Positions 15,640 through 23,380 of a DNA stretch of 64,000 bases are shown piece by piece. The notes under the pieces are model-generated. The model saw nothing but the letters and a program-made list of their open reading frames with translations. It was not told the origin of the DNA and made no database searches. Source of the stretch: Campylobacter concisus (GTDB taxonomy: Bacteria > Campylobacterota > Campylobacteria > Campylobacterales > Campylobacteraceae); the NCBI RefSeq assembly GCF_003048875.2, contig NZ_CP049264.1, positions 930,001-994,000 on the forward strand. Direction: 5' to 3'. The translations under genes and the position numbers were made by a program. The number at the start of each line of letters is the position of its first letter. Within the stretch, counting starts at the first letter, position 1.

Positions 15640-16793
15640 TGAAATTTACAAGAACCGACCACATGCAGCTGTTACCTCACATGCAGGATGTTGGCAGCGA
15701 CATTATGGATGAAATTTTAAAAGAGCGAGCTAGCTACAAACCAGAAATTTACAGCGAAGCGGACGTAAAAGCAGCTCTTAATGCAAAGCACTGCTCGCTT
15801 GAAAATTTAAAAGCCCTGCTCTCGCCTGCTGCAGCGCCATTTTTAGAGCAAATAGCCCAGCTAGCTCAAGCAAAGACAAGGGCAAATTTTGGCTCAAACA
15901 TCACGCTTTTTACACCGCTTTACATAGCAAACTACTGCGATAATCTCTGCGTTTATTGCGGTTTTAACGCCAATAATAAAATAAAAAGGGCAAAGCTAAG
16001 CGACGAGGAGATCACAAGGGAGCTAAGAGAAATTTCAAAGAGTGGCTTGGAGGAGATTTTGATCCTAACTGGCGAGAGTGAGACTAACTCAAGTGTCGCT
16101 TACATCGCAAACGCCTGCGCTTTGGCAAAGAAATTTTTTAAAGTCGTTGGAGTTGAAATTTACCCGCTAAACTCTGAGGACTACGCCCTGCTTCACAAAA
16201 GTGGCGCAGACTACGTGACCGTCTTTCAAGAGACCTACAATCCCACAAAATACGAAAAAATCCACCTTGGCGGCAATAAAAGAATTTTTCCATACCGCTT
16301 AAATGCGCAAGAGCGAGCGCTTCTTGGAGGCATGAGAGGAGTTGGCTTTGCCGCACTTCTTGGTATAGATGACTTTAGACTTGACGCCTTTGCGACCGCA
16401 CTTCACGCAAGCTTAGTTCAAAAAAAGTATCCGCACGCCGAGATCGCATTTTCATGCCCAAGACTTCGCCCTATCATCAACAACGACCGCATCAATCCCC
16501 GTGACGTGGGCGAGCACGAGCTTTTACAAGTGATCTGCGCTTATAGAATTTTCATGCCAACAGCTAGCATAACGATCTCAACTAGAGAAAAGGCAAAATT
16601 TCGCGACAACGCCGTAAAGATCGCCACAAATAAGATAAGTGCTGGCGTAAAAGTAAGCATCGGCGCTCACGGCGAAGAGAAAAAGGGCGACGAGCAGTTC
16701 GAGATAAGCGACAGCAGAAGCGTGGATGAGATAAAAGCAATGATAAAAGTAAACGGCCTAGAGCCCTTGATGAGCGAGTATGTCTATGTTTAA
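15639..16793 (+). CDS. thiH: 2-iminoacetate synthase ThiH (radical SAM)
   Basis: ThiH cleaves tyrosine to dehydroglycine (2-iminoacetate) and p-cresol, feeding ThiG. The radical SAM cluster motif is CDNLCVYCGF (CxxxCxxC), followed by LTGESE and a C-terminal ISTREKAKFRDN segment typical of ThiH. This is the oxygen-sensitive route, in keeping with a microaerobic or anaerobic lifestyle; aerobes mostly use ThiO. It overlaps thiG by 1 nt and thiE by 14 nt. Confidence 0.95.
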   Translation: MKFTRTDHMQLLPHMQDVGSDIMDEILKERASYKPEIYSEADVKAALNAKHCSLENLKALLSPAAAPFLEQIAQLAQAKTRANFGSNITLFTPLYIANYCDNLCVYCGFNANNKIKRAKLSDEEITRELREISKSGLEEILILTGESETNSSVAYIANACALAKKFFKVVGVEIYPLNSEDYALLHKSGADYVTVFQETYNPTKYEKIHLGGNKRIFPYRLNAQERALLGGMRGVGFAALLGIDDFRLDAFATALHASLVQKKYPHAEIAFSCPRLRPIINNDRINPRDVGEHELLQVICAYRIFMPTASITISTREKAKFRDNAVKIATNKISAGVKVSIGAHGEEKKGDEQFEISDSRSVDEIKAMIKVNGLEPLMSEYVYV

Positions 16794-17400
16794 AATTCTC
16801 TGCGTGGCCGACTTTGAAAGCTATGAGGGCGATGACTTTTTAAAGAGGATACAGCTACTTTGCAAGGCTGGCGTGGATGAAATTTTGCTTCGTGCAAAAA
16901 GGCTAGACGAGACTGATTTTTACGATCTTGCTAGGGTTGTGGCTCAAATTTGTGAAAACTACCGCAAGAAATTTATCATTAATCAATTTTTTGACGTAGC
17001 TTGCAAGCTAAAGAGCGACTTTTGGCTCACTTCGGCGCAGCTTGATTTTTTTAAAAATCACAGCATTTTTTTAGAAGAATTTAGAAAAACAGCTAAAATT
17101 TACGCCCCAGCTCACGACCTAGAGCAGGCTAAAATTTCAGCCTCTATCGCTGACGTGCTCGTTGCTTCTCATATATTTGCCACCTCTTGCAAGGCAGGCT
17201 TAGAGCCAAAAGGGCTAAATTTTATAAGTGAGCTAAAAAGCTTAGATAAAGAAATTTACGCACTTGGCGGACTAGATAGCGGGAACTACAAAGAGGCCAT
17301 AAAAGCAGGCGCAAGCGGAATTTGCTTTATGAGCTTAGCAATGAACGGCGATATGGAGCTTATAAAAAAGATAGTAGAGAGCAAAAACGAGCAATTTTAG
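16780..17400 (+). CDS. thiE: Thiamine phosphate synthase-like protein (divergent ThiE/TenI)
   Basis: Position and fold identify this as a ThiE/TenI family TIM barrel: DEILLRAKRL (usual Q.R.K strand), KKFIINQFFDVA, IFATSCK (usual F.T.TK) and IYALGGLDSGNYKEAIKAGASG. ThiE joins the thiazole and pyrimidine phosphates. It is divergent: the usual DGVHLGQ-type segment is replaced by SDFWLTSAQL, so some pyrophosphate-site residues are missing or changed. It could be a genuine divergent ThiE or a TenI-like protein. It ends the thiSFGHE run. Confidence 0.75.
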   Translation: MSMFKILCVADFESYEGDDFLKRIQLLCKAGVDEILLRAKRLDETDFYDLARVVAQICENYRKKFIINQFFDVACKLKSDFWLTSAQLDFFKNHSIFLEEFRKTAKIYAPAHDLEQAKISASIADVLVASHIFATSCKAGLEPKGLNFISELKSLDKEIYALGGLDSGNYKEAIKAGASGICFMSLAMNGDMELIKKIVESKNEQF

Positions 17401-17501: not shown

Positions 17502-20500
17502 TTACAACAGATCAACTTGCACGCCGTCTTGGATCTCGACAAAAACGGTGTGCTTTGAATTTATTGTGTTACCATTGATAACTTCTTGGCGATTAAAGGT
17601 TGCTTTATAGACTTGATTTACCGCGTCACCATCGCTTGTGACATCTACTTTGTTGTACGTATCGCCAACGACGCTATGTTTATTATTTAGCGTGGTGATA
17701 TCTGCTTTTGTGGCTTTTACAAAATCATGCGTAAGCTGCACCAGGTCTTTACTATCGCCTATAACTTTTAGCACGGTATTTACGCTCTCGCTGGCTGCAC
17801 TATTGCTCGCATCTCTTGTATTTCTACTATCTACGATGTCAAAGATGCCATTTGGACTAAATTTTATAGAAACAGCTTGATCTGCACTGCCAAGTTGTAC
17901 TTTTTCAAAGTTATTTATCTTTTTAACATTGTCTAAATTTGAAAAATCAACATCATCAACCACTATAAGCGTATCTACTCCGCCTTTGCCGTCTATCGCC
18001 CTACCCTTGCTATAAACAAAAGCATCATCTAGGTTGCCGCCCTTTACATCGCCTTCTTGTTTTAGATAGATTGGGTCTCCAAAATTTGCCTCGCTATATT
18101 TGCTCGTATTTATCTCGTATGAATTTGTAGTGCCTATCTTTTTTATAAAATCATTTTGAATGAGCGCTTCGACATAGTTGTTACTAAAGAGGCGAGTACC
18201 GCTATGCTCTGATCCTACTAAAGTGTCTATCGGATAAGGTCCACTAGCTGGCGCACTATTTTTTTGCATTATGTATAAAGATAAATTCATCTCGCCAGTT
18301 CCGTCCATATACTCCATATCAAATTTATAAAAGCCAGCCTTATTAAATGTAAAATCCCTGCTCCACCATTGACCATTTTTGCCATATGATACTTCTGTGG
18401 ACGGATTTATAAATGTTGTTGCACTTCCAAATTTTTGTGTATTGCCATTTATGGTTAGCTCTACATAGTTGTGTAGGTCGGCTGCTCTTACTGAGTATGT
18501 CCCAGGAGCATTTACATATATCCAACCATCCATTTTCATGACAAGGTCAGAGCCAACAGGGTTTGACTCTCCAAGCGTGTAGTTGCCAGGCTTGCCTTTT
18601 AATGTGCCATTTGCAAAGCTTATATTTTCTCCCGTGCCAGCAGTCGTATCTACGCCGTTTATAAATTTCTTTGGTGCGTATGGATTAGATGCGTTATACA
18701 AGGCATCACTGCCATATCTACCCACTCTTGCTAGATCTTCTGCATGCATATTGCCCTGATCAGACAGGGTCTTATAGTGCGTCCCAGAGGCAAACTGCAC
18801 AACGTCATATGTAGTAGAGGCACTTGGAGAGTAAATTTTAATATAGTCTTTATAGATGGATTTGCCCCCTCGCTGCGAGTAAACACCAGAATCGCCACCA
18901 ACTCTAGCCCTCCACGATGGATCTACGTAGTTATAAAACCACATATCAGCATCAAGGCCGCTATTGCCGATAAAAGTTACTGTGCTAACAGAGACGTTTC
19001 CTGCGGTGTCGGCATTTTTTATCATGAAATTTGCTCCGGTGCTGTTTGCTGGCAGGGCAAAATTTTCAGAGTAGCTGTGCGTATCATCAAGAGCTGAGCT
19101 TTTATGGACGGAATTTAGCAGATCGTAAAGATCTACTTTGTTTATGGTGTTTTTATTTAGCGTGTTGTTGCCACTAGCATCGGTGCCAACACTACCTGAG
19201 ATATCTACACTAGTTACATGTGAAGTTGCCGTTGGAGTGCCGATCGCATCAGGGGTGGCGTCTAGGTCTACATGAACCATTAGGTCATCATCCTTTGTGT
19301 CATCACTCTTTAAAACGGTCGCTCTTATGTTTGAGTATCTCTCATCTAGCTTTATACCAAGGGCCTCAAAGTCCATATTTACACGCTTATCTGCGCCGAC
19401 TGTTAGATCTATATATGTTTGCCCGCTTGGTAAAATTTTGGCATTGCCATGATCATCCTCAAGTGCTAAACGAAGCTTTGTACCAGGGTCGCGGTCCACG
19501 CCAAATATAATATTTGGCTGTTCGTCATTAGTAAGTGAGATGTTGTACTCTTTTATAGTTTTTGTCTCATCATCAAAATTATTTTTCTGGATAACCTTCT
19601 CGTAGTCCTCTACCCTAAGGTATTTAGCGATATTTATAGCTCCGCCATCTATCTGCGTGGCAAGCTTGACGTCATCTATGTAGCTTAAAATTCCAAAGTC
19701 AAAGAGTCTGCCGCGAACGCCATCAGTTGTGGTGACCTCGTTTGGTGTCGTGATAGTAGCTCTAACAGGCGTAGAGTGATCGACCGAGATAGGGACATTT
19801 GGTATGCTAAATTTACCATCCACGATAGGAAGTGGTGCTGAGCCGTCACTTGGCAAGGCGGTTAGTCCATCGTCGCTTATTGTGTATTTAACCGTTGTAG
19901 TTACAGCTGGTATGGTCGGAGTTGAGATAGTGACGCTTACATTGCTTCCTGGTTTTGCGTTGCTAGGTACGTAGATATCAAGGTCGCTTTGGGTTGATGG
20001 TGAGCCAGAAGGGGTTGTGATGCTATCAATTAGCCCGTCTCCGTCATTATCCCTTGCAAACTGCACCTTTATGCTGTTATCTACGGTGATCTCGTCTGTG
20101 ACTGGGTCTGCTTTGTTGCCAGCTTTGTCGGTAAATGTGGTCGTGAAATTTGTCGTAACGCCATAAAGTTTTGTCGTGGTCTCTATGGTGCCATTATTTA
20201 CACTAATAGCTACACCATCATCTCTTGTGGCACTATATGTGCCGGATGCGTTTTGAGAAATTTTAATGGTTATCTTATCTGTTTTGCCGTCGCTTCCTGC
20301 GATATCTATCTCAAATTTATCGCCATCTCTTGCGTCGTTTGGAATTTTCATCTTTATAGAGGTCTTCACGCCATCAGGACTAAAGCCACTCTCTTTACTA
20401 GTTAGCACGCCGTCTTTATCGCTATCTTTTGCAAACTGCACGTGCGGAGACCTAACAGGTGCGACCGTATCGCTTGAAATTTCACTCACACTTGAAGCTT

Positions 20501-22202
20501 TTAAAGCTCCAGTCGTGCCATCAATGATCGTCGTGCTTAGCTTTTTTCTGCTTGGATCAGTTGAGCTCGTAGGGTCAGTAACTGTGATCTTGCCATTTTG
20601 GATAGAGATAGTCTCGCTACCTCCATCAAGCGTGGCAGTAAGTCCGTCAGGTGCGATAGTATAGGTCTTTGTGACGCTTGTTGGTGTGCTAGCTGGGTCA
20701 TCGACCTTTATGCGGATCTTGTCGCCAACTGCGGCGTTGTTTGGCACATAGATATCGATAAGCGACGCCGTGCCACCACTTTTAGCTAGTTCGGCTGCAT
20801 TTATAATGCCGTCTTTGTTCTCATCAAGGGTAAAAACGGCGATCGGATCGTTATTATTTGCGATAGTTATCGTATCTGTCGCACCTGGGTTGCCTGACTT
20901 GCTTATCATTTGGATATTTACATTTGTTGGCATTGATGATGAAATTTTAACAGCACTTGCCACGTTAAAGCCAACATTTCCGCCGCTCTCACTTGTGAGT
21001 GGATAGCTCTCGCCACTATCTTTATCCACAAGCGTGCCACTAGATGTTTTAACAAGCGTCTTTTCATGCAAAGTGCCGTCTGGATCAGTAGTAGTGAGCT
21101 TTATCTTGTTGCCTATTTTCATATTTGGTGATAAAACGATCTTCGCATCGTCACTTGGCGTACTGCTGGCTGGATTAAAGCCATTTTCGCTAGCATCTAT
21201 CACGCCATCGCCGTTTAGGTCTTTTCCTAAAACCACCTTTGTAAAGCTAAGAGCTGGCGTAACAGTATCAACGCTTGCGGCTGCCTTTGCTGGAGCTGAG
21301 CTAGCGCCATTTGCTAGTGTAATGCTAGAGCTTACATTAAACGGGGCATTTGGCGTGATAGCAACGCTTGGGATGATAAATTCTTTTTGATCTGGATTTG
21401 TTGCATTTGGCGTGATAGGCAAAATTTCGCTTGGATTGTTTTCATTTATCACGCTTGTGCCTGCAGGATCTACTTTGTAAGAAAGTGTGGTTTTTACGCC
21501 GTTATTTACAACTTCTAGCGTCACTTTGTCGCCTGGCTTGAAGTCATTGTTAAAAGCAACAGCCATGCTTGTGTGATTAGGATCGCCGCCTGCTTCTGCG
21601 ATATTGATATAACCATCGCCGTCAAGGTCTTTTAAAAGTGAAATGCTAGGCGCTGGTATAGCTGGAGCGCTCTCTTTTTGCTCAACCACTACTGGCGCTG
21701 CTCCACTAATAGAACTAACTGGCATTGCTGGCTCGCTTGAGATAATGGCTGGCAGTTCTAGCGTACCACCGTCAAACCAAACTACGTTTGAGATGTGCCC
21801 TTGCGTGTCAAAATTTGATCCATTTATGCTTGCTGCGTCGCTACCATGACTTGAGCCATGAGAGTGGTGGCTAGAGCCTTGAGCGCTTTCGTCGCTGCTT
21901 TTACTACTAGACTCTTCGCTCTCGCCAAAAATCCTTCTCTTGTCTTCTTCTACTTGCGCTTCATTGCCTTGGGCGTCAAATTTTGCATTTGATAGCTCTT
22001 TTGTGATGATGATAGTTTGTGGTTCAAGTAGCGTGATAGGCGCAGCGTGGTCGAAATTTACAACGATAGTGTCGTTGCTGCTTTGCGTGATGATCTCATC
22101 GCCCAAAAATATCTCGTCGCCCTGCTTTAGCAAGATCAACTTTCCGTTTCGTTTTACAAAAACTTTTCCACTTATCTTTGCGACGACACCAACGCTTTGC
22201 AT
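17502..22202 (-). CDS. Giant retention-module, Ig-like repeat and PA14-domain surface protein
   Basis: A 1566-aa protein with no N-terminal signal peptide. Residues 1-75 (VGVVAKISGKVFVKRNG, LLKQGDEIFLGDEI) resemble the retention module of LapA-type type I-secreted adhesins. A Ser/His-rich stretch follows (about 97-120). Five units of about 130 aa each open with a calcium-loop-like motif: DLDGDGYIN 192, DLNGDGVID 328, DENKDGIIN 460, DSDKDGVLT 593, DNDGDGLID 718. Residues ~1080-1315 look like a PA14 domain (DGWIYVNAPGTYSVRA, NKAGFYKFDMEYMDGTGEM). The C terminus has GKGGVDTLIV and INNFEKVQLG, as in type I secretion targets. No ABC exporter or LapD/LapG gene is in the window. A surface adhesin is the likely role; the ligand is unknown. 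Confidence 0.8.
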   Translation of the reverse strand: MQSVGVVAKISGKVFVKRNGKLILLKQGDEIFLGDEIITQSSNDTIVVNFDHAAPITLLEPQTIIITKELSNAKFDAQGNEAQVEEDKRRIFGESEESSSKSSDESAQGSSHHSHGSSHGSDAASINGSNFDTQGHISNVVWFDGGTLELPAIISSEPAMPVSSISGAAPVVVEQKESAPAIPAPSISLLKDLDGDGYINIAEAGGDPNHTSMAVAFNNDFKPGDKVTLEVVNNGVKTTLSYKVDPAGTSVINENNPSEILPITPNATNPDQKEFIIPSVAITPNAPFNVSSSITLANGASSAPAKAAASVDTVTPALSFTKVVLGKDLNGDGVIDASENGFNPASSTPSDDAKIVLSPNMKIGNKIKLTTTDPDGTLHEKTLVKTSSGTLVDKDSGESYPLTSESGGNVGFNVASAVKISSSMPTNVNIQMISKSGNPGATDTITIANNNDPIAVFTLDENKDGIINAAELAKSGGTASLIDIYVPNNAAVGDKIRIKVDDPASTPTSVTKTYTIAPDGLTATLDGGSETISIQNGKITVTDPTSSTDPSRKKLSTTIIDGTTGALKASSVSEISSDTVAPVRSPHVQFAKDSDKDGVLTSKESGFSPDGVKTSIKMKIPNDARDGDKFEIDIAGSDGKTDKITIKISQNASGTYSATRDDGVAISVNNGTIETTTKLYGVTTNFTTTFTDKAGNKADPVTDEITVDNSIKVQFARDNDGDGLIDSITTPSGSPSTQSDLDIYVPSNAKPGSNVSVTISTPTIPAVTTTVKYTISDDGLTALPSDGSAPLPIVDGKFSIPNVPISVDHSTPVRATITTPNEVTTTDGVRGRLFDFGILSYIDDVKLATQIDGGAINIAKYLRVEDYEKVIQKNNFDDETKTIKEYNISLTNDEQPNIIFGVDRDPGTKLRLALEDDHGNAKILPSGQTYIDLTVGADKRVNMDFEALGIKLDERYSNIRATVLKSDDTKDDDLMVHVDLDATPDAIGTPTATSHVTSVDISGSVGTDASGNNTLNKNTINKVDLYDLLNSVHKSSALDDTHSYSENFALPANSTGANFMIKNADTAGNVSVSTVTFIGNSGLDADMWFYNYVDPSWRARVGGDSGVYSQRGGKSIYKDYIKIYSPSASTTYDVVQFASGTHYKTLSDQGNMHAEDLARVGRYGSDALYNASNPYAPKKFINGVDTTAGTGENISFANGTLKGKPGNYTLGESNPVGSDLVMKMDGWIYVNAPGTYSVRAADLHNYVELTINGNTQKFGSATTFINPSTEVSYGKNGQWWSRDFTFNKAGFYKFDMEYMDGTGEMNLSLYIMQKNSAPASGPYPIDTLVGSEHSGTRLFSNNYVEALIQNDFIKKIGTTNSYEINTSKYSEANFGDPIYLKQEGDVKGGNLDDAFVYSKGRAIDGKGGVDTLIVVDDVDFSNLDNVKKINNFEKVQLGSADQAVSIKFSPNGIFDIVDSRNTRDASNSAASESVNTVLKVIGDSKDLVQLTHDFVKATKADITTLNNKHSVVGDTYNKVDVTSDGDAVNQVYKATFNRQEVINGNTINSKHTVFVEIQDGVQVDLL

Positions 22203-22522: not shown

Positions 22523-23380
22523 TTACGCTATCTTGCTAGCGTCGATGATGTTTAGATCAAGACCTAAGTCTTCCACAGATAGGCCAAGTGCAAGACCTAC
22601 AAGCTGAGAGAGGTGGATGATAGGTTTTCTAACATCTGAGTGGTTCTCATCTTGATATCTCTCTTGATAGATGTCAAGTTGCATTTGGCAAAGTGGGCAT
22701 GGAGTGACAACTACGTCTGCGCCATTTTGATCAGCGTTATTTACGATCTGGCTTGACATTTTTCTTACTGATTTTCCAGCTGGATAGCTAGCGTGGAAGC
22801 CGCAGCAGTCAAGTCTTTTCTCAAATGGCACGATAGTAGCACCAAGTGCGCTTACAACAGTTTCAAAGCTCTTTGGATTTACTGAGCTTTCTTTGTTATG
22901 TAGATCTTTTTCAGGTCTTAGGCTGTGGCAGCCGTAAAATAGCGCTACTTTTAGACCGCTAAGTGGTTTAACAACCTTTGCTCTTAGCGTATCGACATTT
23001 TGGTAAAGCTCCCAAAGAAGGCTTGTTACCTCAGATGTACCGTTATATTTCATATTGCCTTCAGCTAAAAATGTATTTATACGATCTTTTGCACCCTTGT
23101 CAAGCGTGCTTTTAGCCCTTGTTAGAGTTAGCATACAAGTTGAGCATGTCGTAAGCATCGGCATATTCATCTGCTCTGCAAGCGCTATATTTCTAGCATT
23201 TGCTACAAGTGCAGCCATAGGATCGACGTCTTGTGCTTGTTGAGCACCACAGCAGCTCCAGCCCTTTATCTCGTGAAGCTTCCAGCCAAGTACTGGAGCG
23301 ATGGCCTCAAGCGACATCTTAGCCTCTTTAGCTGCTTGAGTGAGTACGCATCCTGGGAAAAAAGCGAATTCATTTTGCAT
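22523..23380 (-). CDS. mfrE: Methylmenaquinol:fumarate reductase subunit E (CCG-domain protein)
   Basis: This 285-aa protein has two cysteine-rich CCG domains like HdrB of heterodisulfide reductase: FPGC...GWSCCGAQQ with Cys43-Cys44, and YGCH...RLDCCGFHA...PCPLCQ. In Campylobacter and Wolinella the subunit, formerly SdhC or SdhE, anchors the MfrAB catalytic pair at the periplasmic face and passes electrons from methylmenaquinol. It has no obvious membrane helix. It is the third gene of mfrABE, 2 nt after mfrB. Confidence 0.9.
   Translation of the reverse strand: MQNEFAFFPGCVLTQAAKEAKMSLEAIAPVLGWKLHEIKGWSCCGAQQAQDVDPMAALVANARNIALAEQMNMPMLTTCSTCMLTLTRAKSTLDKGAKDRINTFLAEGNMKYNGTSEVTSLLWELYQNVDTLRAKVVKPLSGLKVALFYGCHSLRPEKDLHNKESSVNPKSFETVVSALGATIVPFEKRLDCCGFHASYPAGKSVRKMSSQIVNNADQNGADVVVTPCPLCQMQLDIYQERYQDENHSDVRKPIIHLSQLVGLALGLSVEDLGLDLNIIDASKIA

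Follow-up and report, generated by a model that had tools for sequence, protein, structure and literature searches.

In published Lap systems, cutting by LapG is the step that releases biofilm adhesins. The cut falls between the alanines of a [T/A/P]AAG site that lies downstream of a targeting helix (PMC13090378), and replacement of the di-alanine by di-arginine blocks cutting by LapG orthologues (PMC6890996). MhPA14 binds sugar in a calcium-dependent manner, with an Asp-Asp pair that coordinates both the calcium and the sugar (PMC6650083), and SiiE of Salmonella enterica is described as a protein of 53 domains with its own dedicated exporter (PMC5466336). For Campylobacter, we found no paper on a Lap system in the literature searched, though, of 48 genomes from the genus, 45 have LapG and 45 have LapD. 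Retention modules occur in 46 of the 48, and the two that lack them are also the two good genomes in which neither LapG nor LapD occurs; seven genomes were sampled from the family's other genera, and LapD was not found in them.

The gene described here lies in a 64,000-nucleotide stretch of a Campylobacter concisus genome, the whole of which we call the window. On balance, we think it probable that its product is a retention-module adhesin exported by type I secretion, with the LapA/MpIBP architecture and in a LapG-insensitive variant. The parts of the gene are the following, with the basis for each assignment in brackets.

17502..22202, minus strand: whole adhesin gene (1566-aa ORF)
21954..22202, minus strand: LapA-type retention beta module, residues 1-83 (NCBIfam NF033682, residues 3-83, below its cut-off)
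21783..21953, minus strand: linker rich in Ser, His and Glu, residues 84-140 (sequence comparison)
19719..21650, minus strand: five Ig-like extender units, residues 185-828 (AlphaFold2 model and unit identities)
21594..21629, minus strand: calcium-type loop 1, DLDGDGYINIAE, residues 192-203 (motif)
21186..21221, minus strand: calcium-type loop 2, DLNGDGVIDASE, residues 328-339 (motif)
20790..20825, minus strand: calcium-type loop 3, DENKDGIINAAE, residues 460-471 (motif)
20391..20426, minus strand: calcium-type loop 4, DSDKDGVLTSKE, residues 593-604 (motif)
20016..20051, minus strand: calcium-type loop 5, DNDGDGLIDSIT, residues 718-729, position 12 not acidic (motif)
18258..18959, minus strand: PA14/GLEYA-fold domain, residues 1082-1315, without the Asp-Asp pair (Foldseek and a weak GLEYA match)
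17505..18050, minus strand: C-terminal type I secretion region, residues 1385-1566 (motif likeness and sequence reading)

The original prediction, of a giant surface adhesin with Ig-like repeats headed by calcium-type loops and then a PA14-fold module, was right about the class of protein. It overlooked the likely N-terminal LapA retention module, the part that sets how such a protein is exported and held, and the lap operon, and the word giant overstates a length of 1566 aa, short for an adhesin of this class; another open frame of this kind in the genome runs to 3810 aa.

Of 36 other genomes of the genus, 12 have a close orthologue (83-98% identity), and in all 13 loci compared, the window's own included, the adhesin gene is downstream of the same gene (22523-23380 in the window). 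The gene on the 3' side varies, being thiE-like in the window (16780-17400) and at two other loci and an HtpG-like frame, judged by eye, at the remaining ten (L014 and L017-L025 compared). Besides the group of the window's protein (A) there are three paralogue groups, B (646 aa), C (1759 aa) and D (1548 aa, in other genomes), and the retention module, the PA14-like domain and the C-terminus are common to all of them. An alignment-based scan of contigs showed paralogues on three Campylobacter concisus contigs, and a contig scan with the single protein as query gave no match. Near tandem paralogues B and C is a 1213-aa protein (L005:6340-9981) that by eye resembles an S6-type autotransporter.

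The N-terminus matches the retention_LapA model (NF033682) over residues 3-83 and model positions 2-82 of 145 (E=3.4e-7), at 30.5 bits against a 50-bit cut-off; two paralogues score 36.8 and 42.5 bits. A retention match under the NCBIfam curated cut-off counts against the explanation that we favor, as does the low model confidence in the retention region and linker (pLDDT mostly 21-57). Groups A, C, and D have an overall identity of 33-35%, and the core residues of the module (GDEIFLGD and neighbors) are kept in all three. At the other end of the protein, the terminal motif is like the one in other adhesins of the genus that have a retention module; residues 1385-1566 contain one degenerate RTX-like turn, seen by eye, and gave no match to a C-terminal RTX nonapeptide array (Pfam HemolysinCabind).

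A complete lap-type operon is present in the same genome (C1:587184-596870), encoding a TolC family protein, LapG (E=5e-68 to NF045674), LapD (N-domain E=9e-37), an LssB-type ABC protein (E=1e-282), HlyD (E=7e-119), a DUF5416 protein, a LuxR-type regulator, and a second LapG. This second LapG-like protease (G000:C1:596387-596716; L013:6244-6870) adjoins the LuxR-type regulator at the 3' end of the operon, and by sequence reading the Cys, His, and Asp of the expected catalytic triad are kept in both LapG proteins. Given the likely retention module, the lap operon, and 13 retention-module matches in the genome, the window's protein is probably a type I-secreted, outer-membrane-plugged adhesin. 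Ten GGDEF matches in the genome, of which LapD's own is weak, make c-di-GMP signaling plausible. Two LapG matches occur in 18 of the 48 genomes of the genus. We considered whether the second LapG is dedicated to the window's adhesin and rejected this as a simple link, since there is a single LapG in genomes with an 84% orthologue, and two occur in several genomes where no close homologue is present. Elsewhere in the source genome, a 23-kb region (G000:C1:1937298-1960148) holds six retention-module matches, including the 3810-aa open frame, and is apparently an island of Lap adhesins.

It is in the linker that the protein departs from the canonical arrangement: in place of the LapG targeting helix and the [T/A/P]AAG site there is an acidic stretch rich in Ser and His, and the GHxSN-type motif that follows the site position is retained. 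Of 59 other retention modules taken from the genus, 57 have [T/A/P/S]AAG, 55 of them in the form LE[E/A/S][T/S]AAG, compared with 0 of the 28 members of groups A-D, which have no conserved alanine pair either. LapG insensitivity is predicted because the targeting helix and [T/A/P]AAG are both missing. A PA14-like adhesin from another genome (L065), with 43% identity to the window's protein across the PA14-like and C-terminal parts, has ETAAG, so a PA14-like head alone does not go with loss of the site. In a 76-column tree, each TAAG-less group is supported at 98-100 and B+C+D at 74, with A not joined to them. A single origin of the TAAG-less modules was considered and set aside on this topology, which is compatible with one loss or with two. 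The two exceptions among the 59 modules are L044 and L064. In L044 (G000:C1:1823505-1823849), an in-frame TAA stop upstream of its TAAG interrupts the frame of the retention module. L064 (L064:427-963; G000:C1:1952626-1952850) is a stand-alone retention module of 178 aa, without an adhesin body or TAAG and with a C-terminus that resembles the secretion motif; it may be what a deletion left behind, or it may act as a pore plug.

The DxDxDG loops that had been placed at residues 192, 328, 460, 593, and 718, spaced 136, 132, 133, and 125 apart, are confirmed. The pattern D.[DN].[DN]G occurs at these five sites and nowhere else in the 1566-aa protein, and 5000 residue shuffles gave a mean of 0.31 motifs and a maximum of 3, never reaching five. 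That every repeat has a candidate calcium site holds, on motif reading, for four of the five: loops 1-4 are complete 12-residue loops of EF type, each closing with Glu at position 12, but loop 5 is incomplete, with Thr in the closing position and no acidic residue there. The 12-residue DxDxDGxIxxxE loop of EF-hands and dockerins is present and complete in 4/5 cases, and paired helix-loop-helix or twin dockerin segments are absent, there being one loop per Ig unit, about 130 residues apart; a Pfam EF-hand search gave E=0.43 and 0.87 only. Each loop does head a unit modeled as Ig-like, as proposed: the units are beta-sandwiches in the AlphaFold2 model (pLDDT mostly 70-88; structure models were built on alignments of 7-8 rows), with a short helix exiting loops 2-4, and they are 21-32% identical to each other. 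The best PDB matches of the repeat model in Foldseek are generic Ig/MG folds and not RTX extenders. A direct sequence search of solved structures returned nothing useful, and HMGB matches among solved structures were taken as chance.

All 12 of the 12 orthologues at the same locus have five units, and the first loop motif is lost in one of the 12 (L023). We saw no repeat-number phase variation among the orthologues and no homopolymer phase variation in them or in the window's gene; a single A7 is the longest homopolymer in the gene or its upstream region. Calcium-loop-headed Ig repeats are also found in TAAG adhesins of other genomes of the genus (L030 and L029), with a period of about 115 and a match to Pfam Big_13 in L030, and such repeats are therefore not limited to the window's adhesin.

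The predicted PA14-like module after the repeats is supported by Foldseek matches to MpAFP/MpPA14 and MhPA14 (prob 1.00, E~1e-6, TMt 0.5-0.58), and the C-terminal half also matches the Flo and Epa yeast lectins with probability 1.00, its top PDB matches including sugar-bound MpPA14. The C-terminal model is weak as a whole, with a mean pLDDT of 55.8; in the core of the domain (residues ~1219-1314), block means are 65-89 save for a low-confidence gap near 1259-1278. Pfam PA14 has no match to the domain, and GLEYA matches are weak. Carbohydrate binding, mentioned at the outset as a property of such modules in other proteins, agrees with the fold but is weakened by the absence of the D-cis-D calcium pair of PA14 lectins. 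No DD dipeptide occurs in the domain of the window's protein or of three orthologues checked, the strand where the Asp-Asp pair is expected reads RAADLHNYVELTING, and in paralogues DD pairs are confined to other, scattered positions. With the pair absent, the case for a lectin role is weak, and the head may have another ligand or another binding site.

These features suggest a course for the adhesin that parts from the canonical one at its last step. The ABC-HlyD-TolC exporter encoded elsewhere in the genome would secrete the protein C-terminus first, and the folded N-terminal retention module, by homology, would stay in the periplasm, plug the TolC-like pore, and anchor the adhesin. Outside the cell, calcium in the loops that head the Ig-like units would stiffen the stalk, beyond which the modeled PA14-fold head would be displayed. 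With falling c-di-GMP and active LapG, TAAG adhesins of the same cell would be shed and this one, judging by the difference in its linker, would not be; it is probably held on the cell permanently. More tentatively, and with slightly less than even confidence, we suggest that one exporter serves two sets of adhesins and so gives both transient and permanent adhesion: eight or nine with TAAG, open to shedding by LapG, and a LapG-immune set, made up of the window's protein and its paralogues, that bears the PA14-fold head and stays attached at any c-di-GMP level.

Instead of escaping LapG, the adhesin might be an ordinary substrate with a diverged site, cut elsewhere in the linker by LapG1 or the second LapG and released like the others. 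The operon does encode two LapG proteins with Cys-His-Asp kept in both, some members have isolated AA pairs in the linker (DAAS, GAAP), and a LapG of different or second specificity in the genus could count against insensitivity. However, the orthologues have no AA pair in common and such pairs are absent from groups C and D, a single LapG is present in genomes with the 84% orthologue, the targeting helix is gone as well as the site, and published LapG orthologues require the di-alanine, di-arginine blocking the cut (PMC6890996; PMC13090378); we consider this alternative unlikely. It is more improbable still that the protein is freely secreted, that is, shed or lodged in a surface layer because a decayed retention module no longer plugs the pore. 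The retained GDEIFLGD core and GHxSN-type motif argue against such decay, even if the 30.5-bit retention score and altered linker would agree with it and an S-layer RTX protein has been reported from C. concisus and relatives (PMC3758288).

A further proposal concerns only the head and is compatible with the anchored, LapG-insensitive adhesin: that, like MpIBP and MhLap, it is a calcium-dependent lectin adhesin whose PA14 head binds glycans, whether host or bacterial. Sugar-bound MpPA14 and the yeast Flo/Epa lectins, matched in Foldseek, point in this direction, as does the published calcium-dependent sugar binding of MhPA14 (PMC6650083). The missing Asp-Asp pair, in the window's protein and at the corresponding place in the paralogues, makes it doubtful.

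From its sequence, the window's adhesin is best read as a known kind, the LapA-type retention-module adhesin, in a variant without the release site. SiiE resembles it in type I secretion, predicted here, and in tandem domains of bacterial Ig type, which bind calcium in SiiE and are candidates for doing so here; the BIg structures 2yn3 and 2yn5 are among the Foldseek matches of the window's protein. The retention arrangement of SiiE differs from the LapA type, and SiiE is not known to have a PA14 domain or a Lap system. MpIBP/MpAFP of Marinomonas primoryensis and MhLap of Marinobacter hydrocarbonoclasticus have the same order of N-terminal anchor, Ig-like extender, PA14-fold domain, and C-terminal type I signal, and PA14 and RTX-adhesin extender structures (PDB 6x7z, 5j6y, 6m8m, 6xi3, and 4p99) are among the top Foldseek matches of the C-terminal half. 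Their extenders are calcium-stiffened, as the loops suggest for the window's adhesin. Compared with these proteins, it is far shorter, with five units instead of many, has neither the LapG site nor the D-cis-D sugar site, and has a weak RTX tail. The LapA/LapG/LapD system of Pseudomonas fluorescens and the FrhA/CraA system of Vibrio cholerae share with it a retention module, here matched below the cut-off, and, in the genome, a LapEBC-type exporter, LapG, and LapD, but the targeting helix and [T/A/P]AAG are absent here, and the source genome has a second LapG in the operon along with its 13 retention-module matches. The canonical adhesins of the same genus (L030, L065) resemble the window's adhesin in the retention module and in the secretion motif at the C-terminus, and carry the TAAG that it lacks. 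With the anchor apparently kept, the cut site missing, and many cuttable adhesins in the same genome, this locus offers a built-in comparison for the contribution of the release step.
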